Shown: positions 28,403 through 54,084 of the stretch, piece after piece
Numbering within the stretch: position 1 is the stretch's first letter
Layout: every line of letters begins with the position of its first letter
Assembly (NCBI RefSeq): GCF_964204865.1
Contig: NC_135252.1
Location: forward strand, 9,445,383-9,509,382
Direction of reading: 5' to 3'
Length of the DNA: 64,000 bases
Source: Styela clava
Taxonomy: Eukaryota; Chordata; Ascidiacea; Stolidobranchia; Styelidae
Program-made: the position numbers and the translations under genes
The notes under the pieces: model-generated
Databases searched by the model: none
What the model was told of the DNA's origin: nothing
The model's input: the letters and a program-made list of their open reading frames with translations, nothing else

Positions 28403-31400
28403 TCATTTAGCAATTTCACTTGGAACAAACAAGAAGTCTGTTGGAATGAACGTCTTCAGATCTGACATGTTTTTCACATATTTCATTTTCTTCATTACTT
28501 TCCGACTGTGTGATGATAAAATTAGTGGTTATTAAAATGACAAATTTAAGTTATCATGTACAGTATATAGAGAAATTCAATACTCCCTAATATAGTTATG
28601 TATACAGACAACAAGGACACTTGTACTGCCATATGAATGTTCAGGCGAGTGTTTCATGGTGGAATTGGTTGGTGAAATAGCCTTTATAACAACTGTTCTG
28701 AACGTGAACATTTAATGGTGTTCTGCAAATCATGAAGTCAAATACATGTAAAATTGCCAGCACAACCATTCTTATTCAATACTAAAATAAATTTTTGTTT
28801 ATTAACGTTCCCTTATTTGAAGCATTTCATGGCAACGATATTTGGTTATTATTGAGAAGAAGTTTGATGAACAGCTTTTCGGAATCCTAAGTCGATATTA
28901 GTTGTGACAAGATACCTCAGGTTCTAAACCTATATTATGCTGGCAATGGCAGCTTCAATTATTTTTCACCGTTTTTTATACTCATGTTTTTTTCATATGG
29001 ACCTTGTGGTCGGGAGTCATAAACGGCAATGAATGAAAAGGAAGTACACATTTGACCATTAAATAATATTTGCGGTGATAAGGAGTGTCGAAATCACTCT
29101 GACAAAAATCACCCAAGCACAATTCCTTGAGCCAATTAAAATTAATATTTTTGCACATCCAAATAAGCAGTTTCAAACCAGATAAAACAACACAAAATAA
29201 TATGAGAGCAAAATAAAAACATTACCTGACAAACAATCTTGCCATTGTTCTAAAATATAGAGTTGGATTCATAATGTAGAATGCTTCCACATTCTTCTTC
29301 AAACTATAGTCAACATGCTCATGCCATTTTTTTAAAAGTGAATTTGAAGGAATTTGATGTTTGGGAGTTGATCCAACAAACATAACCACACTAAATTTAT
29401 CTCGAGCGAGAAGTTCCACAGTGGCTAATACATATCTGGAACGAAAAGAGTTAGAATAGTCTATTGGTATTTTATATGGAAATTTGGAATTTTCGAAACA
29501 ACTGATTTGAGCTGTACATAAAACAAAAGATTCAAGTTTTATTTTTCCATGTTAGTAAACAAGGTTCATATTGATTCTTCCATTCTGTGATTATATGGCA
29601 TTACTGAAGCATTACATAGCAGTTATATCACAACTAGTTACTGATCAAGTCAATTATAGAAAATTTTAAAAAATTTGAGCACCCAAGACAGGTAGTTGAA
29701 ACAGCAACCAAATATCAGCTTAATATTGTACTGCTTTTGGTAGTGTTGTACAATGACTGTCAATTTAAAAAAATATTAGAACATTTAAAACACAAATTAC
29801 CGGTACTCAAAATTTGAATAGTCTTGACTCATACAAATCAAATACTCGTACAAATAAAAATCAAAGGAACTCACAGGAATAGATTGTCCATAACCCAGGC
29901 ATAATGATCTATGTTGGAACTTGGTAGGTATGAAGTGAATATTTCAATAATTGCACTCTTTTCATCATAAAATCCTGTATGTAAAATAATAAATAAACAT
30001 TTTCTATATACACTACCTTTGCTGCAATAATAGATCAACATAAATAGAATCATAAGTGTCTTACAAAAAACATCCTGCAAATAAGAATAACAAGAATATA
30101 TTTTGTATGTGAGCATGATTCATAAGGAAAAATACTAGAAACATATTTTCCCAGAAGTCATTTATATCTCAAACATCGAGGAGTGCATAGTTTTTAATAT
30201 GTGTTTTCCATGTGTGACCTATATCCAAGTCCTCATTGGTGAGGCATACTAAGTTCAGAAATTCAAAAGAATTCCTCTTCATTCAGTATCTTAACTTTGG
30301 AATTCACTAAGATTAGCAACTATAGTTGGAGCAAAGTGATTTAAATTCAATTTTGCCTCAATTTTAACTCCAAAAAATTAGTAATTTCAAGTACAAATAC
30401 CTGATTATAATACAACATGCATTTATATCAGTGACTTACCTCCATGAGAGATGACCTTTTTATAGGGTTGTATAGCAGTTTCATCAATCTTATACTCAAT
30501 ATTTTTTATTGTTACAGTCTCCCACCGAATCATTCTAAGTACATCTGGTTTCGGTGAGATTGGTATGATATCTTTTCTTGCCACCAACTGAATATTGGTT
30601 TTTATAATTGTCGGTTCCGGAGGTGTTTTGGGCTTTTCCTTCCGCAGTGATGGCAACCTTGGAAGTGAGCTTCTCTTTCCTGTTTTATGAATAAAAGAAA
30701 AAGAGCGTTTTGAATTAAATGCCACAAAGCCATACTTAAAAAATAAGTACAAACCTGTAACATCATCAATACTGCTGGTTGCTGAAGTTTCAGACCCAAT
30801 GAAGCTAGAAGACCTTTGACTTATATTTTCTGACATTGATGTTGCTGTTGAAAAATTTTGATTTTAGCGTCTTAGGTTTCAATATACCCAATTATCACTT
30901 CCTTAAGACCAATATTATTACAGTCATTACACATCTAATAAGTAGTCATAAGGACAACAAAATATAACTCTTTCAGTCAAATGTTTTTTTGGCGCTTCAG
31001 AAGTGTGTGTACCAATATGGAGGTAACTAATTTTTGTTCACCTACTCTACATCAAGTTGTGTGAAGGGACTGAAACCTATGGGCAGGGGGTATATTCACT
31101 TAGCTAACATAGACAGTCCCGAACTCGCAATAGAACTAAAATAAGGAAAATTGAAATAAAATTATGGCCTAACCCGAACCCAGTACACACACTACGGAAG
31201 TACAGTTTTTTCCGTCTTACCTTATACCAAAGCTACTAGAATGCATAAACTTAGAATATTGACTTCTCTTACAACATTCCTAATAAACAAAAAGAAAAAC
31301 GGTTCCAATTGTTATCAACACAAAAATTACCTAAATCGATGGTTATTTGTTCGACAGGGGTGTCGACAAATTGTGCGGCGTCAGGCGTGTCATCCAGAGC

Positions 31401-34400
31401 AACTGATAGTATAAGAGACGATGGTGGTACCAAAGATTTCCTTTTTCCTGGTGAATGAATCTCATTACTAAAGTCATTGATCATTGGTTCAATAATGTCA
31501 TCATCATCATCATCCACAACAGCATCATCATCAAGTGATATGAGCTGTTCTTGCTTTTGTTCTGAAATTAAAATTAAATAATTATTGTGAAAATATCAAA
31601 AACTTGACTGCATTTAAAAGTAGAATGTTTTTTTTTCATCAATAAACCTATGCCAATAAATAAATCATTCAGGATATCGAATGAAATAATTTTGTTGGAA
31701 GGAAAGCAGAAAGATTTCACTAGCAGTGCCAAAATGTGAAATATTACTTCAAAATAATTTTTCACATGAGCAGAACTTAAACTTAGGAAAGTGAACTGGG
31801 GAGAAAATCTGGTGGTTCTTGGAAAATAACGGACTTCACATAAACTAAAATACAATTTAAGTATCACCAAGCAATAGATCCTAAACCTCACACCAAATTT
31901 CAAATGTGACTTTCCAGCATATACTCACTAATGTTAGCATCATCATCTTCTTCTGAATCAGTAAGAAATGTCAAACTTCCAACACTTCCAGTTGTTTCAT
32001 ATCGTATTCTGTGTGATTGGTTTGATCTAAAATTTTTTTTAATTCAGTTATACTGATAAATCCGAAATCCAGAAATATTGATGCTTTCAATATTGCAACA
32101 AATTAGATAAATACATGACATCGATCATTCAATTACTTTTATTGGCTTATTCCATAACATTTAAAAATATATTATACCTATTTGAATTCTCATTTATATA
32201 TAATCGGATAAAAACAAATGTACATACTGTTCAGGCTTGGATTCTGCGTCATTAAGAGCAACCAGTTGCACCAAATGACCCTCATTGGAATTATCTTCAA
32301 ACACCTCAGTCTCAAGAGATTCATTTGCTTTGGCCTCGAAACTATCATGTGTAGCATCAAGGTTGACAAAAGTAATATCTGCATCAATCAGATTGGGTGG
32401 TTCAATGTCATGTCTGGGTTCCATTTCTGGTTTTAAATCTTGATCGTCTTCTTGAGCAAAATTAAAAGGATCTGTGTTGGAAACATTTTCAACTGATATA
32501 AGAGATTCCAAAGTGGACTCAGCGACAGTTTGTTCTTTTCCCATAGTTATGACTTCTTCCACCAACTGATCAACAATTGCGAAAGCCATTGAGTGGTAAG
32601 ACTCCATTAAAGAATCCTGAACGGGCTGCTCTGGTTTTTCATTTGCATGAATATCGACATTTGATGAGAGCAACTTTCTATCATCATTTGCATGCAAATT
32701 TTCATCTGAACTTGACATATCTTTTAATAAATCTTGAGTATGTTCACTATCACTATCAGATAGACCATGTGTCTCCAATAAATTCTTTTCAATGATTTCA
32801 TTAGTATCTTTTGATGCAGTTGAATCTAAATCATGATTTGAAGAAGCCATGTTATCTTTTACGGCACTATCCAAAATTGATTTTTTGGGTTCTTCCGACT
32901 CGATTTGTTCTGTGATCTCCTCAACATGAGTCATTTCTTCCGATTTTGTATCTACAGATTCAGGTTCCATGATTTTGGTCATTCCTGTGACGGTAGCACC
33001 AAAAAGTAATGCCTCCTCTATATCTGAATCTTGATCACTATTTTGTATAATATCAGAATGTATTTTCACATGGTCTACATCAGCATCGACAATTGAATTA
33101 CTAGTTTCTGCATTTGATTGTAGTGGTGTAATTGTCGTTTCAGATTTGGAAACTGAGGAGACATCTTCAGTAGTATCAACCATGTTATCCACGGTGTTTT
33201 CAGTGATTAAATATGTGTCCTGTGTAGGTGGCATCGGAGCAATTTTTTTACGTGGCATTACACCATCTTCTATATCTGTGACTGTAGCACCAAAAAGTAC
33301 TGCCTCTCCTACCTCAGAATCATCATCACTTTTTTCTGTAATATCAAATTGAATTTTCATGTGATCAACACCTGCATTTTCGACATTCATAATAGAATCA
33401 ATTGAAGCTTCTACATTTTGGGCTATTGGTGTAATTTTGTTAGATTCAGAAACTGCTGCGGTATTATCAATAGCATGAGTGTTGTTATCTGTGGTGTCGA
33501 CAGTATTCAAATATGTATGCTGAGTTGGAGGCATTGGAGCAATTCTTTTACGTGGCTTTACACCATCTTCAATAACTGTGACTTTAGCACCAGGAAGTAA
33601 TGCCTTTCCTACCTCAGAATCATCATCAGTTTTTTCTGGTATTTCAGATTGAATTTCCATGCGATCCACACCTGCATTTTCGACATTGATATTTGAATTA
33701 CTGGAAGCTTCTACATTTTGGGCTATTGGTGTAATTTCGTCAGATTTGGAAACTGCTGAGGTATTTCCAATAGCATGAATTCTGTCATCCATAGTGTTGT
33801 CAGTATTCAAATATGTATGCTGAGTTGGTGGCATTGGAGCAATTCTTTTACGTGGCTTCACACCATCATTAATTTCTCCTGTCTGAGAGCGTGTGTGATT
33901 TTGGAGAATATTTTCATCCTGTGATGCTTGCAAGTCTGCAGGTACTTCACTACGATCTCTAGATGTGATTTGGTCATTGGCCACCAAATGACTCTCAATA
34001 ACTTGACGGTCCAAAACATCTTTCTCACTGTCATTGGCATTGAATGGTTGATTATCCACAAAGTCATTATCAATACTATGGTTAGATGGTGGAAGTGGAG
34101 CAATTCTTTTTTTCGGTTTCAAATCAGATTCATGTTGACTTATAACAGTTTCCTCCACAGCCTGCTCAATATCCGATTTTAATGTTCTTTTCTTTTTTCT
34201 TGAGGGAGGTGGAGGAGGATAGTTTTGATTATGTTCATCTGTATCAATTAAGGATTCTTGAGGCGACTTATCAATATCTGGTGAATGAGCTATTGCACAT
34301 GATTCTCTTGAATCATCTGTTTCATGAAAAGTTTTTGCAAATATGTTTTCTGCAGCCTGTGGGATTAGCGAGTTTGATTGAATCTCGACTACAGAATCTT

Positions 34401-37400
34401 TTCCCATTGGATTACGATTAGTTGAATCATACAAAGATTCTGTTTTATCTTCCATTTGCAGTGTGCCAATACCAGTACAAGATTCCATACTCACTTCAGT
34501 ATTTACAACAACATTGGATTCAATGTGCGATTGTGCATATATTTCAAAACTTGAATCCATGGCTGATTTTTCCTGCTCTCCAGAGAGTTGAACATCTGCA
34601 TGTAGAGTGTCTTTATTAATCACATTCTCTGAAATTTCATCTCTAACTGAAGTAGGTACTGACAGTTCACCCTCCATGGCTGGTTTATCAAGCTCAATAG
34701 TAGCATTGGACAATGAATCGACAGTGAGTTTGTCAGGTATTTCTGACTTTGTGGTGTCTGATATAGGCTGGTCTTCAAGAAAGGGTGGCTCAGGTATGCT
34801 GATTGGAGCTGCATGAATAGCTTGATCTTGCTCTTCATTGCTCTGTGATATTATTGAAGAAAATGGTGGAGTCCCTCCAGTGACTATTGAATCATCAATT
34901 TGAGGTGCAGACTCACTTATTATATCCACGTTGTGTTCCACTTCATTTAATAAAAGTTTTTTCTTCTTTCTTGTGGGAGGTGGTGGAGGAATGTTGTCTT
35001 CATGTCTGTTGGTATGGATTACAGAATGCTCAGATATTTCAGCATTTGTTGGTGAAAAATCATTTGAGATAGATTTCTCCACATTCTGATTATCAGAAGG
35101 TTCACTGATTAAGTTACTGTCAGCGATCTGATGTTCCAACAAGGTTGAATGAATTTCAGTGTCAGAATATTTTTCAGTATTGGCAATTTCTATTCCATCG
35201 CTGAGATCCATATCCGCAACTAATGGCTGATTCAATTCATCATTTTTAAGATTGCTGTCTCCTTTTGCTTGTTCATCTAATAACTCATTATCAGTAGGTA
35301 TTGAGTCTACAATAAATACATTCTCATGAGTAATTTCAGCTGATGATTGTAATGATACCTCCCTTTCTGTGTCTAATTCAGTAGCAACTTCTTTCTCTGT
35401 ATCAGAAGAAGGAATGATTACTTCATTGGCTTGTTTGCCTGATTCTTCTGCATTAGCATTTGTGGATAATATACTATTAGAATGTTCAATCATGTCCATA
35501 TCATCAAGCGAGGCTGGTTGAGATATAGTAATTGTTGGTACACCCTTCTGTAACTCTTCTGTAGACGTTTCAAAAACACCAGTGTGTTCAGTTTTACTGT
35601 TTACTATCGATGTAGGTTCAGTTGTGTTGGATTCCCATTCCTGTAGAATTTCGAATTCTTGCGCAATGCTATGTCCATTTTTATCCTCAGATTCTTCAGC
35701 AGAATGATTCAAAGATGTGGGTTCATCAGTATCACTCGGTTCTGTTTCTTCCATAATTATAGGTAAATTAGAATATATCGGATGTTCCTCTTCAGCTATT
35801 TCTTCCCAGCCAGCATCAAAGCCTCTGTAGGTAAAATTAGAATCTTCTGGCCCGCTCTGAACATATGAAGATAAGGGCACAGAGTTGTTTTGACTGACTT
35901 GGTGCCTCAATGCTATGATAGGATCGTCAAAGTCATCTTGACCGTGAAACATATCATCATCGGTTTCCGAATCATCATTATGTTCATCATCACTACTTGT
36001 AGCATTTGCTTCTATTGAAGCAACATCACCCTCATCATCAGAAAGCAAATCGTTATCAATATAAACTGATGATGGAACAGCAGATGAGTAACTTTGTCCA
36101 GAAACGTAAGTATTCGAAACAGTAGTTCGATGTGATGGAAGAGAAGGTGTTTTCTTTATTACATTAGATGCTATTGATATTCTTGACTCAAGTTCAGTGT
36201 CTCCAAACATATCATCATCAAACTCCATTGTTGGAGAAACTATATGATCTGGAGGTAAAATATTGCTATCTCTTGTAGCAGCAGCCGGTTCTATTAATTG
36301 CAAAGTGCTTTCAACTTCTTCACAAGAAGCATCAACATTTATAACCTGATCATGTTCTTTACCAACAATTTCCTCTTTTGATGTTCCATCAATTACATCA
36401 ACTTCATTGATATCTGTTATGTCTATGTCTGCATCAGATGGTGCCAGTTCTGTTATATTTACACCTAATTTTGCAACATTATTATGACTGCTGGCTACAG
36501 TATTGGAACAATCTTGTATGGTTTCAAGTCCGTCCTCCTTTTGCCGAAAGTTGACACTACTACCATTTTTCGAAGTTACATTTGAATCTACATCTATAAT
36601 CTCCGAATGCTCTGTATGATCATCAGCTGGTAAAATTTGATACTTATAAAGTTCATTTATAGTATGGTCTTTTTCATCATTTGACTCATCATGTATTCCC
36701 TTCAGTAAATTCTCATTTCCGAAACATGATTCACTTTGGGATTCATCATGAACTGTATCTGGCACATCCTTTGTAGAATATTCAAGTACAACTGAACTTT
36801 TATCTAGTGTTGGGTCTGAAATAATTTGATGAAAAATTTGGCCTGTTACACCTGTTTCAACCAAACCAATTTCCTCAGTAGACTTTTCTTCAATAGAATG
36901 ACGAACTGGCTCTATAATGTCAATGTTGTCCACAGATTGATTTTCAGATGCTTTTTCAAGTATAGGCTTCTGTAATCCATTACTTGAATTTTTCTCGAGA
37001 ACAACCTTTTCCGAAGTTGATGTTTCATCAGAGTGACTCAAAGTAGTAGATCTTTCAGAAGCTATGTCACTGAATTTGAGCATTTCGGAATTTTTCAGTG
37101 GATCTCCAACATGATTTGATTCCTCATTCTCTTCATCAGCTATACTTAATGACAACTGCATTGTATCCTCTACATTTAAGCAGTCTATGACAGGTATATA
37201 ATTTGAGTCTGGCTGCATGACAACTTCACTGTATTGATCAGGCACTTGACTACATGTATCATGATATTTTTCAGTGTCCACTTTTAATTCACTCGATTCA
37301 TCATTTATGAATGAGTCTAGCTTTACTTCTTCACATTCTTTAGGCGTATTGGAATCAATTATTAATAAAGCATCGCTTTTGTCACAAATGCTATTGTTTT

Positions 37401-40400
37401 GAATGTCTGCTAACAAACTTCCATTGTCTTCAAATAAACTATTGAAATTTGATCCATCATTACTATCTTTTGTTTTCTGTAGTGCCACCGTCTCAAATGT
37501 ATCGGAAGTAAGTAGCTCTGATACGAGTTTTTCTGAAATTGTATCAGATGCATTTTTCGTCTCAAATGAATTTTCTTCATCCATTTGAACGTCAATAATT
37601 GGACTATTGGTTTCATCATCTATTTGGTCTTCATTATTCATTTCACCAGAATGTATAGAAAAACTTGCCTCAGAAGTTGTTGTCATTGATTCATCAGAAT
37701 CCATAATTAATATGTCTTTACCGGACTCAGTATGCAACACAGGATCAGTGGTTTCAATATTTACACCTGTGGTTGTATCTGGTAGTAATATGCCATCAGG
37801 GTAAGTGCCTCTGTCACCAGTCATAAAACTTTCTTCAGAGTTCATTTGCTGCTCATTAATTGATGTAATAGGCTGTATCTCATGAGTAGCTGGGGATGGT
37901 ATTTCTTGTGTAGTGACAATAAATTGTTCTTGTTCAGAGATTTGCATCAATGAATTTGACATATTTATTTCTGGCGAACGATCATCCATAAGATTATCTT
38001 TCACCATGTCATCGGATTTTTCTTTGTCTGCGAAATCTGCCATATCGCTTATTTGATTAATCACTGTAGGTAATTCAAGAGGCAAACTACTGCCAATAGA
38101 ATCCTGGTCAGGACTTCTTTGCTGCTGTTGATCTTGCAGTGAATCATTGTCATTTCCTGTTATTTGATGTTGGGAAGCGTTTTCTGAAGAATCGTTCTGT
38201 TTTGAGTCAAACTCTGTTTCAGTGAAAATATCATCATTTGATTTCGAAATTTCATGATAGTTCTTATCAGATTTTTCTGTCATGTGCCTTTCTGTAAAAT
38301 CTTTTTCTAAATTGATGGTTATGTCACTCCCAAAAGACTGGTCATAAGTTGTTTCCAAAATGCAATCTGTAGCTTCAATATCTGCTGTAACTATAGTTGG
38401 CTTCGCAATATTGACAATGCAGTCTTCAACTTGAAACTTCGGTACCAACTCACTTTGATCTTCATCATTTGGTTTAAGATCCTCTGAGTCACGTGGTGAA
38501 TCATTTATAAATTGAACACTGGAGTTTTCAATCATCAAATCCTCTGCTTCACTTGCAACTAAATCTTCAGAATTTATCATATTCTCTTGGTTTATGATTT
38601 GAAATGAATTATTGATGCCTTCAATTATTCCTTCGTTTGTGTCACTTGATTCATGTTCAGTGTGTTTGACAAATGCATTTTCTTCAGAATAACAGTCTTT
38701 TGTGACACTATCCACAACCTGATTTTGATTTTCTTTCGAGACAGTGTCATCTATTCGCTCAGCAGATATAATATCTGACATATTGCTTTCAGTTGAATTT
38801 TCATCACATTGAGCAGTATCTTGTTGACCAATATCACCAGGATTTGAGTCGTCAACTTTATCTTTTTTCTTTTTACGCCGAGGGGCAACAGGTGCCGTGT
38901 TTGTATTAGTAATGTCAGTTTCTTCAAGTAAATTCTCAATAGCATAGGGCAATGTCACTACCCCTTCAGAGTTCGAATAATCCGCATTTGAATCATCCTG
39001 TAACCCTTTCATTGAATTGTTATTTTTAAAACATGATTCACTATTTGATGTATTAGGAACTGTATTGCCTTGAGTTGACTTTTCCGGCTCATCATTTATA
39101 GATGATTCTTGAGAAACAAAACTATTATCTGGTGATTGGTCTGTGATATTTTGTTCAAGTATCTGGTCAATGGAATAATCTTCAGCCTCATCAGGATTTT
39201 CTCCATTAAAACTGCTTTCACTGATATTACCAGATTCAACTCCTTCAATTAAATCCTCTACAGGAGAAGCCAATGACACTACTACTTTGGGAACTGTACC
39301 ACATGTATATTCAGCTTTCGATCTTTCAGACTGAGTTTGCGGCAATTTTCCCAGTAATAAACTTTTAGGAATAGACATATTTTTATCTGGGATATCTTCA
39401 ACAAGTACATTTTCAGAACCAGTATCCATTGTGCTGTTTTTACTTTGACTATTGAAAGTGTCAGAAGAAGATACTTCCAATATTTCTGTTTTTGATTCTA
39501 ATGTGGTGGACACATCAACATTTTCACCATTAGAGCTCTCTTCACTAACATTAGCAGATTCAGCTTCTTCAATTAAATTCCCAGCAGGCGAAGTCGAAGA
39601 CACCTCGTTTGTGGAAATAGTACCAAGTGAGCCAAAGATATCCATATTAGCACTGTTGGAATTTTTCTCTGACCCTTGTATTGTCACTTCATTGCCCACT
39701 TGCATAATCAAGTCAATTGATGGCTTATCATCTTGAGAATTTGAATGATTTTCTGAATCCTCTTTATTTTGATCTGAAAGCATTATACTTTGATCATGCC
39801 CAACTGTGTTGACTTCAGAATGTATGAAGAGGTTCCTTTCTTCTGCATTGATGTCTGAACAATCAATGTAGTCAGCTTCTGATCTTTCAGGTGGGGTTTG
39901 CTGTACTTTTTCCTCAGATAAACTTGCAGGAATAGAAGCATGGAAATCTGAAGTATCCCTCACATGAATATTTTTAGCATCAGTAGTTGCATCGTTTTTA
40001 CTTTGACTATCAAAAGTGTCACAAGTGGATATGTCAAATATTTCTGTTTTTAATTCCAACATTGTGGACACATCAACACTTGTTGACTCCGTTTCTAAAC
40101 TTTCTGTTTCATGAGTTATATAAGCTTCCTCATTATTAAAGTTATTGTTATCATCAAATTGATTGACAAAATCATCATCACCATTCAATTCAGTTGAAAT
40201 GCCAATGACCATTAATTCTTCGCCCAATCTATCTTGTTCATTCTTATTCTGACTTGAATCAGGTGGTAATGTATCTACATCCCGAGAAACAGAATCAAGA
40301 ATAGAATCATCAGCATTAGACTTTGAACTAACATTTTCTTGGACATGAGAAAAGTCATTTATCAAAAGTTCAGATTTTACTTCCGAGTTTTCTCCGTCTT

Positions 40401-43400
40401 CTGATATAGTTTTTTCATCAGACTTTCCAACAGAATCAATGATGTCGATTGCAATTTCCTTCATTGCCTGACTTGAATTTTTAGAATTAGGAACTATGGC
40501 ACTATCATTGTCATTACAACCGGGTGATTTTGATTCAGATATGATTGATTCATTTGCAGATTCCAGCATATAATCCTGCACTGAGCTTTTTTGTTTTGCT
40601 ATTAAAATTTCTTCAGGCGAGAATAGCTCAAAATCATTTGACAAAATTTCCAGGCTCTCTTCAGTTGAGGAGCCACGCGCTGTATCCTCAAAAATATGTT
40701 GTTCTAAAGATGGTCCAAACGAAGTCTGTAGATTTGAATGCTTGTTAAAATCAAAATTCTGATCATAAGAAACTTCACTGCTACTTTTCTCTGTATCTTT
40801 TGTTGACAAGCACTTTTCACTTGTATGCGTGTAGTTTGCAATATCAAACTGACTATGTATATTTATTGACTGATCTGTGGTATTCTCAGCATGTGGTGAT
40901 GTCATTTCATCGCTATTCATATTTTGGCCCTGGGGCAACATAGTACCATTAAGCACATGACTGTCTGATAATTCCAATAAACTCTCAGAAAAATTTGTTG
41001 TTATAGTAGACATGTTGCATTTTTCTCCTTCTGAAGGCAAAATTATATCTGAAGTCAGAGAACTATTACTTATGGCAAATTCACTTTGTTGTCCAATAGG
41101 TAACAGAATATCATTGACTTCACCACCAGATGAATTTTGAACGGGTTCTACACTCTGTTCAAATCCGGTAGTTAAATCAAACATGTAACTTATATCGGCA
41201 TCATTATCTTGTTTGGATTCAGCCTCATTTGTTGTTAAAAGTCCATCATTATTTAGTTGTGAAGTGCCACTTGAAGCGAATGGTACACCATCGTCAGAGA
41301 TCATAGGATCAATAATGCTATTCATATCATCACACACTGGTTTGTTTGTCTCGAATAATGAAGTTTCCACTTGTGGCCCAATAACTGCTCTCATATTTTC
41401 TTCTTGATTATCGTCTGTTTCAGTAATATTATTTTTGTCCAGTTCCATAGCATCTGAGTATTCTGATATTTCTTTGCCTACTTCAATGAAAACAGATTCC
41501 AACAAATTATCCACCGTCTCCAACAGTGCTTGTGAATATTCTATAGGAGTTTCTGAAGGACTGGACAAATTTAAAATTGATTGAGAGTCAGAAATGGCAT
41601 CAGAAGCAGCATTGAGCTCATCAATTTCACTTTTATGCAATTCTGGATTGATGTTTTCATAACTTATTTCCAAATTCTTGTGATCAGCAGTAACTGGTAT
41701 TAAGGGCTCATTGACAGCACTACTACTTGAGCCTTCAACTTCAAGATCGTTTGTTGAGATTTTATTATCCTTCTGATGATTTGAAGTCATCGGTGCAGAT
41801 ATGCTCAAATTTTTTTCAATTATAAATGAATCACTATCAAGTTCTTGCTCCATTGAAGAGAGAAGAGTGTCATTTACTAGATTTGGTAAAACATCAGCTT
41901 TTTCCTCATTTTCTGATATCCCAGTCTTCTCAACCATGCCCTCTGTATTTTCTTGCTTATCTGTAAAACCATGATTGCCACTCTCATCAACACCAGTTGG
42001 TTCTGTACATAGATTTAACAAATTTTCCCCAGAACTGGCAGTCAAAAATAGATCAGAATTATTAAGTCCTTTTGGTGTTCCATCGCTGTCCTGTATCAAG
42101 CTGACATGATTTCCTGAATAATCGACACTGTTTTCTTGAGAAAAGAGAAACTCGTTATCAGACGTTTGTTCAGTTTTAGTTAATTCTGAAGTGGAAGTGA
42201 ATAATAGATCTTCACGTACATCAGCATCAATCAGTACATTAGTAAGCATCATAAAACTTGGATTATTTTCTACTTCAGAGGATTTCTGTGAGGTTTCCAT
42301 TGTAGAAGATTCTTGATCCGTGGATTTTATATCCAATGTATCCAGCGAAGTCTTGTTTGGGTGAAATGTACTTATATCAGCTGATTGTTTTGCAGTTTCT
42401 TCACCCAAATCAGTTTGATTGACAATAACGTTATCAAAATTGGTAGGACTAGAATCCACTGCAACTGTTTTATTCCCCACGTTCAAACTGACTGAATTTT
42501 CATTGGGAATTGTTGTCTTGGGATCATCTGCAATTTTATCATCACTAAAAATACTCAATTTTTCTTCATTTTTAGATGTCAACATTGCTTTGTTCTCCTC
42601 ATTGTTGTTAACACTCTTTATCATACCACTAGCTTCTTGTTCAGCATTTGCAGTAAATATCGATAACTCTGAACTTTCTGAAGTAGGGAAAAGATCTGAG
42701 TTTGACACCAAAGAATTACTTGCTTTTAGTGAATCAGCGCCCATAATTTCTGATAAACTCTGACCCTCAGTGGCATTGCTATTCTCCAATGGTGTCATTA
42801 AATTTGGTGGCAATAGATTAAAATCTGATTCATTCTCATGCTGAGTAGCAGAAGCTTCTGAAGGAATACTCATTGATGTTGATGTAAAATCTATTACATC
42901 CACTTGTTCAATATTCTGGCTGCTTGGACTCGTTTTATCTCTGACAATATCAGAATTAAAATCACTTCCATCCATCCGTGCATCTGATGTAACTGCTATG
43001 TTACTTTCAATGCCGAGTACATTATCAAAAGTTAGATTATCTTCTGATTCAAGGGATTTCTGTGAGGTATTGCTTGTACATTTTTGATCAGTGGATTTTA
43101 TATCCAATGTATCCAATAAAGTCTGATTTGAGTGAGGTGCACTTTTATCAGCTGATTGTTTTGCATTTTCCTCACCCAAATCACTTCGATTGACAACAAC
43201 GTTATCAAAATCGGTAGGACTAGAATCCACTACAGCTGTTTCATTATCCAGGTTTAAACTGAACAAATTTCCATTTGAAATTGTTGTCTCGGGATCATCT
43301 GCAATTTTTTCATCCTTTACAATGTTACATGCTTCTTCATTTTTAGATGTAAACATAGCTTTGTTCTCCTCATCATTGTTAACACTCTTTAGTATACGAC

Positions 43401-46400
43401 TAGCTTCTTGTTCAGCACTTGCAGTGAATATCGATAACTCTGAACTTTCAGAAGTGGGAAAAATATCTGGGTTTGACACCGAAGAAGTGTTCCCTTTTTT
43501 AGAATCATCCATCATTGCTGATAAACTTTGACCCTTAGTGGCATTGGTATTTTCCAATGGTGTCTCAGAGTTTGGTGACATTAGATTAAAATCTGATTCA
43601 TTCTCGTGCTGAGTAGCAGGAGCTTCTGAAGAAATACTCATTGATGTAAAATCTAATACAAATACTTGTTTGTTATTCGGGCTGGATGGACCTGTATCAT
43701 CTTTGACAACATCACTCTGCGTAGAATTAAAATCACTTTCATCCATCAGTTCATCTGATGTAACTGCTGTGTCACCTTCAATGCCAAGTACATTATCAAG
43801 CATGTTAAAACTTGGATTATTGTCTGATTCAAGGGATTTCTGTGAGATATTGTTTGCACATTCTTGATCAGTGGATTTTATATCCAATGTATCCAATAAA
43901 GTCCGATTTGAGTGAGGTGTACTTTTATCAGCTGATTGTTTTGCAGTTTCTTCACTCAAATCACTTCGATTGACAACACTGTTATCAAAATCGGTAGGAC
44001 TAGAATCCACTACAGCTGTTTCATTCTTCACGTTTAAACTGACCAAATTTTCATTGGAAATTGTGGTCTTGGGACCATCTGGAATTTTTTCATCCCCAAA
44101 AATACTGCATGTTTCTTCATTATTAGATGTCAACATTGCTTTGTTCTCCTCATTGTTGTTAACATTCTTTATCATACCACTAGCTTCTTGTTCAGCATTT
44201 GCAGTAAATATGAATAACTCTGAACTTTCTGAAGTAAGAAAAAGGTCTGGGTTTGACACCGAAGAGTTACTCGTTTTTAGTGAATCATCATCCATCATTT
44301 CTGATAAACTCGGACCCTCAGTGGCGTTGTTATTTTCCATTGGTGACATTGAGTTTGGTGACAATAGATTAAAATCTGTTTCATTCTCATGCGGAGTAGC
44401 GGAGGCTTCTGAAGGAATACTCATTGATGTGAAATTTAATACATCCACTTGTTTGTTATTCGGGCTGCTTGGACTCATATTATCTTTGACAATATCAATT
44501 TGCGTAGGATTAAAATCACTTTCATCGATCAGTGCATCTGATGTAACTGCTTTGTCACCTTCAATGCCAAGTACATTACCAAGCATGTTAAAACTTGGAT
44601 TATTTGCTGATTCAATGAATTTCTGTGAGGTATTGTTTGCAAATTCTTGATCAGTGGATTTTATATCCAATGTATCCAACAAAGTCTGATTTGAATGAAG
44701 TATACTTGATTCAGCTGGTGTTTTTGCAGTTTCTTCTCTCAAAGAAGTTTGACTGACAGTGATGGTATCAAAATCAGAAGGATTAGGATCCACTACAGCT
44801 GTTTCATTCTTCAAGTTTAAACTGACCAAATTTTCATTGGAAATTGTGGTCTTGGGACCATCTGCAATTTTTTCATCACTAAAAATACCACATGTTTCTT
44901 CATTTTTAGATGTCAACATTGCTTTGTTCTCCTCATTGTTGTTAACACTCTTTATCATACCACTAGCTTCTTGTTCAGCATTAGCAGTAAATATGGATAA
45001 CTCTGAACTTTCTGAAGTAAGAAAAAGGTCTGGGTTTGACACCAAAGAGTTACTCGCTTTTAGTGAATCATCATCCATCATTTCTGATAAACTCGGACCC
45101 TCAGTGGCATTGTTATTTTCCATTGGTGTCATTGAGTTTGGTGACAATAGATTAAAATCTGTTTCATTCTCATTCTGAGTAGCGGGGGCTTCTGAAGAAA
45201 TACTCATTGATGTGAAATTTAATACATCCACTTGTTTGTCATTCGGGCTGCTTGGACTCATAATATCTTTGATAACATCACTTTGCGTAGAATTAAAATC
45301 ACTTTCATCCGTCAGTGCATCTGATGTAACTGCTTTGTCACCTTCAATGCCAAGTACATTTCCAAGCATGTTAAAACTTGGATTATTTTCTGATTCAATG
45401 GATTTCTGTGAGGTATTATTTGCAGATTCTTGATCAGTGGATTTTATATCCAATGTATCCAACAAAGTCTGATTTGAATGAAGGATACTTGAATCAGCTG
45501 GCATTTTTGCAGTTTCCTCATCCAAAGAAGTTTGGTTTTCAGTGACATTATCAAAATCAATAGGACTAGAAACCAATACATCTGTTTTAATCTCCATGTT
45601 CAAACTGAACAAATTTTCATTTGAAATTGCTGCCTTGGAATCATTTTCATTTACAATTTCATCATCACTAGATGTGCCATATGGTTTTCCATTTTTAGAT
45701 GTCAATGTAGCTTTGTTTTCCTCATTGTTGTTAACAGTCTTTATTATACCACTAGCTTCTTTTTCAGCATTTGCAGTAAATATGGGGAGCTGTGAACTTT
45801 CTGCAGTAATAAAAAGATTTGAGTTTAACAATTGAGATAGAGAACTGTTCGGTTTTAGTGAATCATCATCCATCATTTCTGAAAATTCATCAATTTGTAA
45901 TAAACTCCGACCCTCAGTGGTATTATTTGTCGATGCTGTCATTGAGTTTGATGGCAATAGATTAAAATTTGTTTCATCCCCATGCTGAGTAGAAATGGCT
46001 CCTGAAGAAACGCTCACTATTGCTAAGTCATCAGTTTTAGAATCAGCGTCAGATAAGGATGTAAATTTTAAAACATCTACCTGTTCATTCTCCTGGCTGC
46101 TTGGCGTTATATTATCTTTGATAACATCACTATGTAGAGAATTAAAATCACTGGTATCCATCAATACATCCGTTTCAACTGCTGTGTCACTTCCAATGCC
46201 AAGTAAGTCAACAGCTGACGATGCTGACTTTGCTTCACTGGCTTCATTTTCAATCCGTTTAGGTTCATTAGGTGCGAGTAAATCTGTTTGAACAACATTC
46301 GTCTGAAAGAAACCACCCAAAAGGTCAATATTGGACTCGTCTGGGATATTCTTCACAGTGTTATCAGCAGTCTCAAATAATTCAAGCATGCTTTCAATGC

Positions 46401-46818
46401 CGGATTCAACTTCTGATTGATGAATGTCAAACAATGAGCTTTCAAATGGGTTTACTTGATTTTTGGCTTCTGTATTTTCTATAGGATGCTGATTAAATAC
46501 ATCAAAGTCAAGATTGTCCAATGTGTTAGAGGTGTTGGTAGAATTTTCTGCAATTTGATTAGGTAAGTTAATATTACCTGGAAAATTAAGTAAATTTTCT
46601 GTTGCAGCTCCATCATTAAACTGCAATGTATGATTGGCATCAGGGTATCCAATTCCTGTGATATCATTGCCATTTGCTGAACTACTGTCATTGTCAAATG
46701 CCAGTAGTATTTGGTCATTTGCCGTAGAATTCTGAGGACTATCTTCACTAGTCAACCCATTTTGTTCAACAGCACTATTATCTCCAAATATATCTAGCAG
46801 ATCACCTTCGGATGCCAT
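28403..46818 (-). CDS. PRUNE2: giant PRUNE2/BNIP2-type BCH-domain protein, 5,220 aa, with a 14.6-kb exon
   Basis: Eight minus-strand exons: 46818-32228 (14,591 bases), 32026-31929, 31561-31331, 30844-30755, 30679-30440, 29974-29875, 29435-29226 and 28505-28403. Phases sum to 5,221 codons including the TGA at 28403-28405. The first exon encodes about 4,860 residues rich in S, D, E and N and so probably disordered. It starts MASEGDLLDIFGDN. Tandem repeats fill residues about 190-1530 and 4320-4530; proline-basic motifs (PPPPPTRKKK, KRIAPMPPTQ) recur, and two tryptophan-acidic motifs lie at W3671 and W3728. The last 160 residues are a Sec14-like BCH domain as in BNIP2, caytaxin and PRUNE2: YKKVISHGG, MDNLFLYVLATVELL, FVGSTPKHQIPS and MKYVKNMSDLKTF. 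Family members act as lipid/GTPase-related scaffolds, some linking cargo to kinesin light chain. In-frame TAA nine codons upstream of the ATG bounds the frame. Its prune partner is a separate upstream frame here. Confidence 0.93.
30990..31206. repeat. interspersed repeat family A, copy 2 (intron of BCH gene)
   Basis: Starts GGCGCTTCAGAAGTGTGTGT and ends with the near-inverse GTACACACACTACGGAAGTA, enclosing about 170 bases. The outer arms match copies at 9008 and 55687. It lies in the intron between exons 3 and 4 of the giant gene. I associate this sequence with tunicate genomes from memory only. Confidence 0.7.
33230..33880 (-). repeat. coding tandem repeats of about 297 bp with KRIAPMPP motif
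   Basis: Three copies of a 99-codon unit begin near 33842, 33542 and 33245, each with DGV(K/M)PR(K)(R/K)IAPMPPT followed by a TYLNT-like segment and ending with SDDDSEVG(K/E)A. A fourth related motif, KPKKRIAPLPPS, lies just upstream in the protein near 34100. The repeat period differs from the 780-bp array, so these are independent expansions. Confidence 0.9.
42230..46250 (-). repeat. coding tandem repeats of about 780 bp in the giant exon
   Basis: The same block recurs at about 42316, 43088, 43867, 44648 and 45431 (plus-strand word GTGGATTTTATATCCAATGT), a period of 772-783 bases or about 260 codons. Each unit carries LDTLDIKSTDQ, a VLGIE segment, SDFNSTQSD, PSSPNNKQVDVL, ESDFNLLSPNS, EMMDDDSLK, SSELSIFTANAEQEASG and NNEENKAMLTSKNEE, in that order. 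A sixth, more diverged unit is seen at the N-terminal side. The frame is kept in every copy, so the array expands the protein without breaking it. Confidence 0.93.
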
Positions 46819-48425
46819 TTTCGATTTGACAAAGAAGGCTTACATTTTGATAAATTTTGTATCTGATAACAGTAAAAATATGGTGATCAAATCACATCGG
46901 TAGTAGATTATATTGTCTCGAAACTGAATTACCATACCTGTCGCTATACTGAAATGGATAAACTAAAATGCATCAAGTATAAGATATCCTGATGAACTTT
47001 ATGAGTTTTAACAATTTATTGGACATTATCTGACATGTTAGGGACATATTATCAATAATATAACCTCCGTAATTATGGCTGATGACATGACTACTTACTA
47101 AGATCAGGGCAAAAAAAAATGAAATAAATACTTGATACAATTATAAACATTATTCGCTTCGTGCAGACTTATTAGCCTTGAACTAACTATTTGCAACTAA
47201 ACACAATGCTGTTTGCAGAACCTGAACCAGTAATAATTTAAGCTGCTTCATAATCATACACCCACAGTAAGAGCATATATTGTACCATGCACACACTCGA
47301 CAACATATATATAATGGGTAAATATAAATCGAAACACAGTTAATTATTAACCAGAATATGAAAGAATGACAAATAAATATAGATGTTCCGCGATATAAGT
47401 CTATAGTTGAATACCAAATCAAAATCAGTTCATTTTACACTATCCTTTCGCTTCAACTTTGTCACAGTAACTAACTGTGCATACCAGATGGAATGTTAAT
47501 GGCCCATATATCTGAAAAACTAACACAATTGTGCTTTACTAGTTTCATCAAAATTTACTTGACTTTATCTTCTGTTATTCATGTTGAATTCAATCTGGAC
47601 TATAACTAATGAAGAAAAGCATTTCCACCTACCTTCCACTAATTCTTTAGTTTTAATACTATATGGTATTTTTAATACTTTCTCTTTCATGAATGAAGTC
47701 ACAAGAATAAACTATGCGGTGATCGTTTCAGTGTTTATTATCAAACATTCTCTCTTATTTGATGGTAATATATCAAAACATTTTGTTCATTCAATTATGG
47801 CAAACGTGAGGTCATGGTATTAAAGCAATCTGATAAGATTATGGCAGTGGATATAAAAAAAGGGGATTTACTAAATTGAAACAAAGTAAAACCAAATATG
47901 AAAATGCCCTTCCACTAACGACAATAACATACTAATAATTGCATAAAAACAATAACTATATTATCAACGGGTTTGGCAGTGACAAATATCAAATTAATAA
48001 ACAACATACAAATGATCATTAGTTGAGGCAATTTATAGTTCAATTATACATGCATTTTCTATAGTTTTGTAACTCATGGTGAATTAAAACGTACATTGCA
48101 CCTGATCTCTGCCTCTCTTCTGTAATCTCAGTAACTGCACTGTAACGAATGCGTTCTTGGTTCTATAAGATACAATAGGTCTCTGTTATCTTAAGCCAGT
48201 TTGTTATCTATTCAAAGAGCCGTGACAGAAACCACAAGGCTACATAAGTGGTCATAAATAGCATGAGCAAAGAATAAAATTCTCTTTACACAACTTAATA
48301 GGTACCATTTCTGGCATTTGCAGATGATAAATATTCTACCATGCACAAAATCACTAAAGCAAGTTTGTTGTGTAGAAAAATTATTTACCTGAGTATAAGA
48401 TAACAAAGATATATCTTAGCATTAA
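46819..48425. other. spacer between the giant BCH frame and the prune stop codon
   Basis: No long coding stretch on either strand. Near the left end, on the minus strand, GTAAG at 46839-46843 could serve as a weak acceptor, and GACAGGTATGG near 46936 could be a donor of an untranslated exon. Near the right end, CTCAG/GTAAAT at 48389 is a good minus-strand donor just after the prune stop. The promoter of the giant gene, if it has its own, should be here. Confidence 0.5.
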
Positions 48426-51400
48426 TTAATCAATGGCCTGTTGTACCACTGGAAGAATTTGTTTTCTAGAGGCTTTAATGTTGTACATTCTGAAAATAAA
48501 AAATTAGAAAATAAAATCTAAATGGTTAATTCCTCCAAAGAGTGGTGGATAAAACTTTACGATTTTAGTAAAGATATGTAGTAGTTGTTACTGCTTCAAA
48601 TTACAGCAGTTCAGCGGCAATGAAATTTTCTGTCTATAGCAACATTAAGTATTTGTATAATAAATGCAAAGTTGAGCGTTCAAGTCATCAATATAAATAT
48701 AACTATACCTTAGCTTCGTGAATTCCTCAGAGATTCCATTACTATCTTCTACTATGATTTGTAGACAAGGGGTTTCAGATGAAATCAGCGCTTGTTTCAC
48801 CTGTAAAAAGTAGAAAAAAAAAATTGGAATTGCAAAATTATCAATTGTTTTATGCATTAGAAACTAACTGCAATTTGCAAATGATTATACGTGGGTCTAC
48901 AGGTTTGTATCCTATTGGGCATAATCACAGGCAGGGGGATCACAAGAGTTATTTATTGGCTTTCTTGTGCCTTCGAAATAAATATGGAAGCATCTTATAA
49001 AGAGTGCTTTGTCAGCATTGTTTACACCCTGAAACATATTTTATTTTTCATTCAAAATGTCTTCTCAGCATATAGTCAACATCTTAACATCTTTCGACAA
49101 ACTATCTATCCATGTTGTTGGTTGCATTATCAACAAATGCTAGTTTTTGATTGTTTGCATTTAAAACTGAGCTTGACACTAATCCGATATTACAACTGTT
49201 GAAAACAAAAAATTCTAATTTAGTATCAGCTTGTTATGAGCATCCAAATTAAACACCATTCAGAAATCGGTACCTTCGCCGTCAAATCATGATTTTCAGA
49301 GAAGAGTAACAATGGTTTGAAAGGTTTTTCAGATTCATCATTTTTAAGTGGTGCCAAGGCAAGCCATAAGTGACAATTTCTTGCAGACACTAAAATTGGA
49401 ATGCATGATACTGCATCATCACGATGAAGAAAATTTTCCATTTTGTCGTGTATTGTACTGAGGAACAATTTTATTGTACAATCTTTGTTCTCAATAAATT
49501 TTGCATCCTAAAAATATATATTGTCATATCACGTAAGTAAAATAATGTACCGTAATTCAGATGATTATAAAACTGAAAGCAATTATCAAAATGATTTTTC
49601 GAACTCAAACAAAATATCAAACTAAATAATACACGATGCAAAGAAAAAAATCTAACTCAAAATTTTTAAAACATAATAAAATGAAATACAATGAAAAAAA
49701 ATTACCACTTAATTCTGAATTAGGAAGTTGTCTATTGATAACTCAAAAAATGTTGTTGTGAATATGAAAAACATTTACCTTCAGCATCAAATCCTCGACT
49801 GTTAGGCCATCTGCAGAATACTTGGCTTCACTCAACTCAATAAAAATTCTACAAAATTAAATATTGAGCATAAGTAACGATCAGTGACCAAGTGTCATTT
49901 ATTCTAAAAGTTAGATTACAAATATTAATTATGCTGATGTTTCAGTTTATAAAGTATTGCAGTGATGCAATTCAAATTGGGAATTGAAAAATCTAAATGA
50001 CTCATAGAACAACCTTAACTGTCCTTAGGTCATATTTCCAAAAGTAAACAACTAAATTGACTGAAATATAAAATGCTGAGTTCCCACTGACATTTCACTA
50101 TTCTGTTGTTACTAGTTGACACACAATATGTACTACAGTACATTTAATAGGTACTATATGTTCAAAGTGCATAGTATTTGTATAAAGGAAGTTATTCAAT
50201 AACACATACTGTGCCAGTTGCTCATTGCTGTTGTTTTTCCAGAATGTCCCGATGACATTCAAGTCACGCTCAGTAACTTTCCCAGCAGATTCTTGTAGGT
50301 TAACAGTATCTAGCAAGATTGGACCTGAAAGTATTAAATTAAATTTAGCACAAATTCCACACAACAAATTCAGCGGGATAGACATGACTACAAATGCAAT
50401 AACATTTGCTGTCAATGTAGAATTGCTAGATTCTTCAAAATAGAGTTTAGACCAGCGTGTCCCAAATTCTTTACACCCACTAATTACAATTGTCAAATAC
50501 CTCATATCTATCCGCAGTACAAAACATGAGAAGATTGGATGTATCAAGTGATATTAAAAATTCTATGATATTTGATAAATCCATCTTAACGTTATCAAAC
50601 TTTATTATTTTTTAAACTATCAACTTTTAAATTTTTTCGCTCTAATATTTCATATCAATAAACCAATATTATAAAGCCGATTCCGCAATCTTTTCTGACA
50701 ACAAATATTATGTGTGTGTACAAATATATTTTGAAATATTTTTTAGTTTTAAGTGGTCAAAGGATCTTTTCTCTTTACGAATCCGGAGTTTGGCAGTAAT
50801 TTTCAATATGAGTCTCTTAAAATATGTATTTTAGCTTACTTTTTAGTCATTTGAAGCTAAACATAATAAACTATGCATGAATTTTATTGACATTTCGTAG
50901 TCGTAGACTATTTTCTCACCAGCGAGAATCTTTGCGAACTCAAGGTGCGTTAATTGCAACGTGTCCCGCGTATCTGAGCCACTATTGATATCTCTTAGAA
51001 AAAAAAAATCCTTGTCCAAACGTGTGAGAAACACCACTAAGTTTAAAACTAAAAAAAGTTTCCAAACTAAGGGGTCGGCTTATAGGCGCATGACTCTGAC
51101 CGCACTCAAATGTAATGACATTTTATCAATTGAATATTAACGCAAACTCAAACTGAACAATATTATCATCAACGACGCCAGGCTGACAATAAAATCCGCG
51201 ATAGATACTAAATAATATTTAAGAGCTATTTTATATGCTGTAAGTTGCAAGAAAGCTTAGTGACCTACATGAACTATATGACTGCATAATGTTTCTAAAA
51301 CGATATTGTTCATTGAGGACTCATTAAAACGCCTCTGCAGATTCCTTTAAGACCCGGACTCGGATTGGGAAACACTGTTCTAAAGAATTGACCAAGAATC

Positions 51401-54084
51401 TAAAAGTGACAATATTGCAGGAGGAAAAAATCAAAAATTTAATAAATTGAATAGGACAGTTTCGAATATATTCAACATTATATTCTCTTGGGATATCCCT
51501 AGTTTGAACACAGTAGGATAGGATTTAGACATTTATCCCAGGTAAGAAGAAAGCCAATAAGACACCATAATCATATAGCATACCACGGCCCCCCGTTCAC
51601 TTACCAGAATATGTTGAGTATGGGATTAGATAGCCGGTTAATCCAGCAATCCTCTTGCACATATCCATTCCCTGGAGGCAAACATATTCCTAACACTAAG
51701 TAACATGTGCAACACCACCAAGCCTCAGTACAATATCCAATACTAAGTACATAATAAATTTAAAACAAAAGAATACCTGTCACTAATAAAGTAATTTCTT
51801 TCAGTTCTTTTTCACTGAGCATAAGTTCTTCCCTATCAATTGCCTTGATGATTCTTTCAGCAATCAAGGTAGTGCAAGATCCGACTGTTGCTATTTCAAC
51901 TTTAATATCAGAGTCATATTCTCTTGCCTGAGTCCTGTGATCTATAACTTCAGAAACCATTGGATACAAATATTCATCTGATCTGCCAAAATTGAATAAC
52001 ATAGAATTTTTTGAAAAATATAAAGGTCATAAATCAAAAATATGATCTCAGATAAATATTGTAATAAGAAAATAAGAATATAATATTAGGTTTTAGAAAG
52101 CATTTGTTGTGAGAACTTTTTCAAAAACTAATGTTATTGAAAATGTGAATGGTTCAATTAATATTTCAACACTCATTTTCACATTGGGTGTATAACTATT
52201 GATCAATGTCCTTCATTGCAATGCAAGAGAAAGCTTTTTTTGTATCGCTAATATCATGTTTTCTCGACACTGTAGGTTCTGCATTGAATCAAAACTGAAG
52301 ATAATAGCATAAATAAATGTCAGTTTTGAACAAGATAGTTAATATTATCAACACAGATAGGATATGATTACCAGTAAGTTGCATTCACAATAACCGTAAT
52401 AAAATGAAAACTAAACCTAGAACCTTGAAATATTTAAACCTAACCTTGATAACACATGATGGTCCAGAAGAGTGATTTTAACATTTTGTTTATGATTGCA
52501 GAAGAGATCATGAAAATCAACTGTATCTTGAAAAATCAAATCATTCTGTGATATTTCAAATTTCTTCAGCAAGTGAACGGTTTCTGTTTTCAGTCGAAAC
52601 ATGTTTTGAGGGATGTTTAAAACTGGAATATGATAAATCTTCTTCCTGTTTTCGATGGATTGAATCTAGAAATATTAACATTACTTGTTTACAATTAATG
52701 ATAACAAATATGGGTATCACAAAGCAAAGGGTTTGGTCAGTTACAATGCATATATCTTCATTGCATTTATAATTGTGTTTCATTTAAGGCTTCAAAAGTT
52801 TCTTCAATATTCAAGAGATGCCAGCTGAACTCCAGTATGCAAATAATTTAACCAAATTAATCTAAGTAGTGATATTACAACAATAAAAGCTAACATAAAT
52901 AGTGTGACAGTCAAAAGTCAACCTAATCCTTGTTTTTTTTTAGTTTATTATCGTCAAATTGTCTTGCTAAAATAACTTTTATGTGCTTTACCCGTGTAAG
53001 AAACCAAGCATACACCAAAGCTGACACAGCAGAATCGAGATCACATGCTTCATTCCCAAATATTACATTGAGTGTTTCGGTAGTTGTTAAAAGACTGCTC
53101 CGTCTTGCCTGACGAATAAAAAATGACAAAATCAAAGTCCAAGCTAGCATGAAGTCAGGTCAACCATCATAAAAAAGTGAAATTTTAGTATTCTATATTT
53201 TAAAGCATACTGATTGCGATTGGCCACCTTTCTGCCTTTAGGGAGATTTTTGACATTTTATAGCATTTAAGTTTTTCAGCAACAAATGAAAGAGTTAAAA
53301 TGAAGGTTTAAACTTCTTTGTTGAGGCAAACAAGGAAATATAGGGTCTGGTAGAATTTAGTACCACATGTACTTCTAGTTGGCCTGGCTCACCAATTTTT
53401 GCATACGCCATTCCTAACCCCCACCTGACTACGTCACCGAAAAATTACGTCATTAAAACGTCACAGTCAGACAGTGGCGTAATAAGACCCACCAAAGTAT
53501 GCAGATGGTCGTTCAAAACGCGCAGACGATCACCCAAAATCGAGCAAGCTATTTCGCTCGTTTTCTCGTTGCATCGATCACGATATGAGACAGATTGCCG
53601 GCGTTATCGGCGGCGCAGATGCCATTTCGGGCGATTGTAATTATACTTTGGCAAGCTCTATGGCGTGATGGTGACGTCGTAGCAACATAATTTTTGGATG
53701 GCATAGTCAGGTGGGGGTTCTCTAGACTTAGAGAATGATAACCGTATCTACAGACCTATAACACAAACTCAGTGTGCGGGATAGGCCATCAATCGTTTAT
53801 AACTAAACAGCGAGAACATTAAATTCCCAAATGATATTGCCGAATCGGTTTTGCTGGATCTGGCACTTTCTTATCAGAATAGCCGTTTTGTCTGTCCTGA
53901 TTGCTCAAGTAATCAAAAAATCTTTTTTCATTCCAGTCTTATGTACCGGTACGGTACAATTTCAAAAGTGGTACAGGATTTTATTAAAAATCAGTAAAAT
54001 GGTTAATTACAAGTTTTTCCGCATCTTACTCACCACGTCGGAAATTTTTACACGTGCCCGACTCAAAAAATCCACAAAATTCAT
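48426..54084 (-). CDS. PRUNE: prune exopolyphosphatase/phosphodiesterase (DHH-DHHA2)
   Basis: Nine minus-strand exons: 54084-54034, 53108-52992, 52665-52445, 51982-51777, 50324-50210, 49848-49779, 49507-49274, 48800-48709 and 48489-48426. Phases sum to 334 codons including the TAA at 48426-48428 (333 aa). The start, MNFVDFLSRARVK, aligns with the N-terminus of prune proteins and sits in front of a strong GTGAGTAAG donor. DHH-superfamily metal motifs are intact: GNEACDLDS (residues 35-43), LIFQDTVDF with Asp106, LLDHH (His125, His126) and VIDHR (Asp144-Arg146). DHHA2 features follow (LLDTVNL, AKYSADGLTVEDLML, FLSTIHDKMENFL). Prune enzymes hydrolyse short-chain polyphosphate and cyclic nucleotides and bind regulators of motility. 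The tail after DHHA2 is absent; the frame stops shortly after ASRKQILPVVQQ. It is followed on the same strand by the giant BCH gene, its fusion partner in vertebrate PRUNE2. Confidence 0.93.
53416..53719. mobile_element. 304-bp MITE with perfect 16-bp inverted ends (prune intron 1)
   Basis: Left end AACCCCCACCTGACTA (53416-53431) is matched exactly by its inverse at 53704-53719, and a second inner pair (ACTACGTCACC / GGTGACGTCGTAG) extends the symmetry. The body is less AT-rich than its surroundings and has no open frame. I see no convincing target duplication, so the superfamily is not assigned. It sits in prune intron 1. Confidence 0.8.

Follow-up and report, generated by a model that had tools for sequence, protein, structure and literature searches.

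Introduction

The human gene PRUNE2 (BMCC1) was, according to the accessible part of one report, first annotated as two genes (PMC3765211). A second report describes for the same locus a prune-only mRNA made of exons 1-6, the last of which is extended, a giant-BCH mRNA that does not overlap with it and encodes 2,724 amino acids (aa) in exons 7-19, and a joined form of 3,088 aa (PMC2655648). Provided that the C-terminus is common to both proteins, the giant part starts near residue 365 of the joined form (3,088 minus 2,724), i.e. about one prune length into the protein. The same paper states, as of 2009, that frog, fish and invertebrates had yielded no BMCC1 homologues (PMC2655648), and no unfused invertebrate pair of prune and giant-BCH genes was found reported in the open-licence literature, judged mostly by titles. 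Here we analyze a stretch of 64,000 nucleotides (nt) of the ascidian Styela clava (the window; C3:9445383-9509382, on contig NC_135252.1 of assembly GCF_964204865.1), in which a prune gene is directly followed by a gene for a giant protein with a BCH domain. With a probability of about 0.72 we regard them as two separate, complete, head-to-tail genes, which probably keep the linkage behind vertebrate PRUNE1-BNIPL and the fused PRUNE2. This unfused state of the PRUNE2 parts in a tunicate renders the origin of PRUNE2 testable, either as adjacency followed by fusion or as fusion followed by fission, and suggests that the giant exon originally belonged to the BCH gene and not to prune.

Gene models

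Gene models in combination with domain searches place both genes on the minus strand in the order prune, giant exon, BCH domain, in agreement with the PRUNE2-like order and common orientation noted in the first-pass annotation of this DNA. Coordinates without a contig name refer to the window; genome searches covered 376.6 Mb. The prune gene is composed as follows:

48426..54084, minus strand: prune, 9 coding exons in one open frame, 389 aa, GT/AG at 8 of 8 introns
54084-54034, 53108-52992, 52665-52445, 51982-51777, 50324-50210, minus strand: prune exons 1-5 of the spliced model
49848-49779, 49507-49274, 48800-48709, 48489-48426, minus strand: prune exons 6-9 of the spliced model
48426..48428, minus strand: prune stop TAA, at the natural end of the DHHA2 fold

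Pfam analysis of the prune model revealed a DHH domain (PF01368, 31.4 bits; cut-off 28.1) and a DHHA2 domain (PF02833, 32.8 bits; cut-off 27), the latter match ending at residue 387 of 389. Among solved relatives, only yeast exopolyphosphatase PPX1 (2qb6) matched clearly (E 2.7e-15); prune residues 23-387 align to it, residue 391 of the 397-residue PPX1 chain being opposite prune residue 387. Animal prune proteins share the active-site motif pattern NEACDLDS/LLDHH/VIDHR, and all three motifs are present in the model, opposite NESADMDS, LVDNN and IIDHH of PPX1. Because the DHHA2 match extends to residue 387 and the PPX1 alignment to residue 391, the TAA, which the sequence places at 48428-48426 just as annotated before, stands where a prune-type fold normally ends. 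Exon 1 (17 aa) was assigned only from its ATG, a good donor and the matching phase, without homology support. The first gene would be an ordinary animal prune of the DHH-family phosphatases with the TAA as its normal end, and its product may act as a metal-dependent phosphatase.

When the genome was searched with prune, each of the 9 matches at E up to 1 fell on an exon of the prune locus; neither a prune paralogue nor a second haplotype was found in this search of the species' own genome. The DHHA2 family search of the genome gave no match, not even at the prune locus, whose DHHA2 domain is interrupted by introns, and is therefore uninformative on copy number. A COX1 family search of the genome likewise gave no match.

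The interval and the downstream gene are composed as follows:

46819..48425, minus strand: interval from the prune stop to the giant ATG, 1,607 bp
28403..46818, minus strand: giant BCH gene, 8 coding exons, 5,220 aa, open from ATG to TGA, GT/AG at 7 of 7 introns
46818-32228, 32026-31929, 31561-31331, 30844-30755, minus strand: giant gene exons 1-4, one open frame
30679-30440, 29974-29875, 29435-29226, 28505-28403, minus strand: giant gene exons 5-8, one open frame
32228..46818, minus strand: giant exon, a single coding exon of 14,591 bp without a stop
28403..30679, minus strand: BNIP2-type C-terminus with BCH domain (Pfam PF13716 and PF12496)

The open frame of 4,881 codons and the domain content of this gene are clearly beyond chance. 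At its C-terminus, PF13716 (CRAL_TRIO_2, BCH) matches with 59.9 bits over profile positions 17-122 of 137 (cut-off 23) and PF12496 (BNIP2) with 34.0 bits (cut-off 27), the latter only over profile positions 95-136 of 137. S (13.3%), E (9.9%), D (9.7%) and N (8.6%) are abundant in the 5,220-aa protein, and W makes up 0.1%. A k-mer diagonal count unveiled four or more repeats, each of about 261 aa, in the region of residues ~320-1,500, for which self-BLAST gave no pairs, and 100-aa repeats carrying KRIAPMPPT motifs are found at residues ~4,300-4,550. The differences between the giant-exon repeats affect all three codon positions to a similar extent, so that there is no sign of purifying selection on the repeat amino acids; the frame nevertheless stays open. 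The second gene would encode a giant, probably mostly disordered scaffold, whose BNIP2-type BCH domain may bind partners.

According to the accessible part of the report on BMCC1, this protein associates with AP-2 (PMC3765211). Thirteen linear-motif patterns were counted in the 5,220-aa protein and compared with 300 composition shuffles, without correction for multiple patterns. DLL (7 vs 2.2 expected, reached in 1 of 300 shuffles), LLD (6 vs 2.1; 8 of 300) and PxxP (22 vs 10.3; 1 of 300) were in excess, four of the LLD motifs being copies within one repeat. The KRIAPxPP-type pattern, which was picked post hoc and is repeat-borne, occurred 4 times vs 0.00 expected (0 of 300). In the same test NPF, DPF/W, FxDxF, clathrin box, WxxF, YxxPhi, AKAP and FFAT motifs were near chance or absent, and dileucine motifs were below it (4 vs 9.3 expected). 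An AP-2/clathrin role of the giant protein, as for BMCC1, is only hinted at by its sequence, since the DLL excess is not accompanied by enrichment of other endocytic motifs apart from the repeat-borne LLD.

A second, intronless BNIP2-family gene encoding 380 aa was found at C10:9907078-9907866 (L002/L042). Like the giant gene it matches BNIP2 and CRAL_TRIO_2, with 35% identity between the two over 167 aa; unlike the giant gene it consists of a single exon, lacks a giant exon and lies on a different contig from prune. It may be a retrocopy derived from a parent with introns, for instance from the BCH part of the giant gene.

Splicing across the interval

Splice sites were scored with a model trained on only 15 introns, those of the prune and giant gene models. 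The scan of the junction covered 108 AGs between 48420 and 46501, the real acceptors being scored leave-one-out. The sites in question are:

48384..48393, minus strand: donor-like TCAG/GTAAAT, exon side ending at 48389, score 8.9, second best of the scanned stretch
46838..46843, minus strand: acceptor GTAAG/C of the first-pass annotation, first exon base 46838, score -1.78
46863..46937, minus strand: candidate 5'-untranslated-region (5'-UTR) intron of the giant gene, 75 nt, donor 46938 (10.75), acceptor 46862 (7.37)

The donor at 46938 is the top-scoring one of the scanned stretch, and giant exons 4 and 5 are likewise separated by an intron of 75 nt. From these splice-site scores, a 5'-UTR intron of the giant gene's own is plausible, and besides this short intron the gene would have an ATG and probably a promoter of its own. 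A minimal upstream open reading frame, ATG followed by TAA (46840-46845), lies within the predicted leader, 21 nt before the giant start codon.

The first-pass annotation had proposed that one mRNA could carry both frames in register, interrupted by a single stop, via a donor after 48389 and an acceptor at 46838. The donor is indeed in phase 1 when reading continues past the TAA, and the frame is open between the TAA and the donor. Likewise, the upstream in-frame TAA (46842-46840) and the giant ATG have a single AG between them, in GTAAG/CC with the exon starting at 46838, which needs phase 1. The junction thus lies where it was described, whereas the giant ATG had to be corrected to 46818-46816. 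The acceptor itself, however, ranks 50th among the 108 AGs and scores higher than only 1 of the 15 real acceptors, and its junction with the donor at 48389 has a sum of only 7.1 (8.9 and -1.78), below all 15 real donor-acceptor pairs (11.4-25.4). If the better acceptor at 46862 is used instead, its register places a second in-frame stop (TAA, 46842-46840) ahead of the giant ATG.

These values bear on the suggestion that a recent nonsense change, a sequence error or a leaky stop breaks a working PRUNE2-like fusion. In favour of it, no further stop interrupts the frame on either side of the TAA as far as 48389, and the phases match; a phase match alone, given a donor, is expected in about 1 of 3 cases. 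Against this stand the TAA at the natural end of the fold, the poor acceptor and the second stop introduced by the better one, on which grounds the stop-interrupted fusion was rejected. The search of the genome moreover yielded no second copy for comparison, and in the context following the prune stop (TAA TTA ATG) we recognized none of the readthrough signals known to us. Altogether we consider a broken fusion very improbable.

Other ways of connecting the two genes were considered as well. Splicing from prune exon 8 (phase 2) to 46838, which needs phase 1, was rejected as out of frame. Within the spacer, 15 stop-free candidate cassette exons (acceptor at least 3, donor at least 4) reached a best sum of 12.0, and none was compelling. 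Prune, giant exon and BCH domain accordingly do not share the single reading frame that distinguishes PRUNE2. The complete prune model with its fold ending at the TAA, the giant gene open from ATG to TGA and the poor fused junction together lead us to two genes, and among the possibilities raised by the first-pass annotation that of pre-fusion neighbours is the best supported.

Transcription of the pair

Several observations weigh against this reading. A strong donor lies 36 nt past the prune stop, as is the case for only about 1% of stop triplets: in the window, 39 of 4,132 minus-strand stop triplets (48389 included) and 56 of 3,784 plus-strand ones have a donor of at least 8.85 within 60 nt, and if phase 1 and an open frame are demanded in addition, 7 of 4,132 and 9 of 3,784 are left. 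Due to this rarity the donor at 48389 may be in actual use. Its combination with the acceptor at 46862 sums to ~16.3, inside the range of real pairs, which makes a two-cistron mRNA bridging prune and the giant gene possible as judged from the splice sites. Among in-frame junctions deeper in the giant exon the best sum is 15.5, the value of a junction from 48743 to 46577 that would bypass the stop, in the lower part of the real range. The spacer, whose first 1,587 bp (to 46839) have 30.7% GC, contains two AATAAA (47739, 47020) and two ATTAAA signals (47676, 47657), which is chance level (1.56 and 2.0 expected); separate transcripts, each from a putative promoter of its own, are an inference. 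Furthermore, the giant exon matched none of the Pfam families with an E of up to 1, so that its putative homology to the vertebrate PRUNE2 giant exon is not backed by a shared family. Finally, two vertebrate VPS13 members are located near PRUNE2 and BNIP2, and the VPS13 matches in this genome fall on C4, C8 and C13 and not on C3; the test of wider synteny with the VPS13 family consequently failed. As an observation on its own, the VPS13-type gene on C4 (L043, C4:19997224-20000397) is contained in one uninterrupted frame of 3,341 codons and is intronless over that length.

The bridging pair of splice sites would suit a single transcription unit, which is compatible with two genes and and in which the giant cistron would be released by trans-splicing of a spliced leader or translated from a two-cistron mRNA; splicing from 48389 to 46862 would leave ~80 nt between the cistrons. 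According to the available text of a report on Ciona, this and other tunicates have spliced leaders and operons, the Ciona leader is 16 nt long, and operons were predicted for genes less than 100 bp apart (PMC7986045). The genomic distance of 1,607 bp from stop to ATG is far above that value, and by this measure the spacer does not look like a Ciona operon. In the accessible part of a study on Botryllus, rare mRNAs link the adjacent fuhc genes, although its authors preferred insignificant read-through as the explanation (PMC3691228).

No Ciona-type leader was recognized in the genome. The exact leader followed by GT gave 0 matches, and the leader end with an Sm site gave 0 matches vs 1 + 1 for the reversed control. 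Allowing for as many as 2 mismatches yielded 43 + 117 matches vs 27 + 36 in the control; at the 20 near-match loci read (L018-L037) among these 160 matches, no Sm-like site was present by the pattern used. This does not show that the species is without a spliced leader. Taken together, we consider a single transcription unit quite unlikely.

A large tandem array at C3:24.85-24.96 Mb (L038-L040) consists of units carrying ATTCTATTTGCATAAG, one base off the Ciona leader, and a short inverted repeat. It was dropped as a set of leader genes, as 14 tRNA matches above the gathering score were found in L038, the one stretch searched. In the three stretches read, no GT directly follows the 16-mer on its 3' side, one GT overlapping its last base, and AGCTTTGG was absent within 94 nt 3' of each of 14 copies (fewer nt at the L038 end).

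The same donor also allows for a fusion in the making: prune transcription would run on, the donor 36 nt past the stop would be joined to the 5' leader of the giant gene, and two-cistron molecules, a minority of the mRNA, would hold both frames in register, parted by stops. If this were true, a small shift of that splice would yield a vertebrate-type PRUNE2. We regard this scenario as unlikely.

Origin of the gene pair

The main rival to two ancestrally separate genes is secondary fission, according to which a PRUNE2-like fusion with start and stop points inside it was already present in the chordate ancestor and the tunicate lineage lost the joining splice. In its favour, a strong donor lies just past the prune stop, and the report on human PRUNE2 shows that a single locus can still give prune-only and giant-BCH mRNAs beside the joined form (PMC2655648). 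On the other hand, prune ends approximately where yeast PPX1 does, with no tail beyond the fold. A giant exon ahead of the BCH domain is found both here and in PRUNE2, which again fits fission; we know of no giant exon in BNIP2, BNIPL or ATCAY. A goat study contains a table that names ANXA9, MINDY1, PRUNE1, BNIPL and CDC42SE1 one after another, apparently in map order, in which PRUNE1 and BNIPL stand as separate neighbours, contrary to what fission would suggest (PMC9902602); a dog table naming both genes is, in the part available, alphabetical and conveys no gene order (PMC6834583). Altogether, fission appears doubtful.

Returning to two ancestral neighbours, the simplest history would be a linked pair of prune and giant-BCH genes that existed before the vertebrate genome duplications, one copy of which was fused later. 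Duplication would probably have given rise to PRUNE1-BNIPL, still neighbours, and to PRUNE2, fused. Such a fusion would need only run-on transcription of prune and the joining of a giant-exon acceptor to an in-frame donor that lies in the last prune exon or upstream of it. We would take the separation in Styela to be ancestral rather than secondary, and an evolutionary link of the adjacency to PRUNE2 is likely.

Beyond the gene pair, a plus-strand stretch at 54940-58480, head to head with prune, resembles by eye the N-terminus of an axonemal dynein heavy chain, judged by motifs familiar to us, and a minus-strand open frame of 371 aa at 3369-4484 resembles by eye an FAD-dependent oxidoreductase. 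On C9, a GH6 exon (PF01341, 42.4 bits) lies after a cellulose synthase exon (PF03552, 28.3 bits; PF13632, 60.9 bits) of the same strand, a pairing which we take to be a tunicate hallmark.

Comparison with known systems

The closest counterpart of the locus is vertebrate PRUNE2 (BMCC1), which likewise comprises a prune domain, a huge exon and a BNIP2-type BCH domain in the same order and on the same strand, whereas the reading frames are separate in the tunicate. Moreover, the tunicate prune keeps LLDHH and VIDHR, motifs that to our knowledge are missing from human PRUNE2. As far as the excerpt on the human gene goes, the likeness extends to the prune-only and giant-BCH mRNAs of that locus, while the tunicate giant protein has 5,220 aa without prune compared to 3,088 aa with prune in human (PMC2655648).

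The mammalian PRUNE1-BNIPL neighbourhood resembles the Styela pair as a separate prune gene and BCH gene, which the accessible goat table lists side by side (PMC9902602); this likeness concerns the listed order. It also differs from the tunicate locus in that BNIPL is, as said above, one of the BCH genes in which we know of no giant exon. The Botryllus fuhc sec/tm pair, as described in the available text, offers a tunicate example of adjacent genes once called one and connected by rare joining transcripts, though with unrelated proteins and a spacer of 227 bp vs ~1.6 kb here (PMC3691228).

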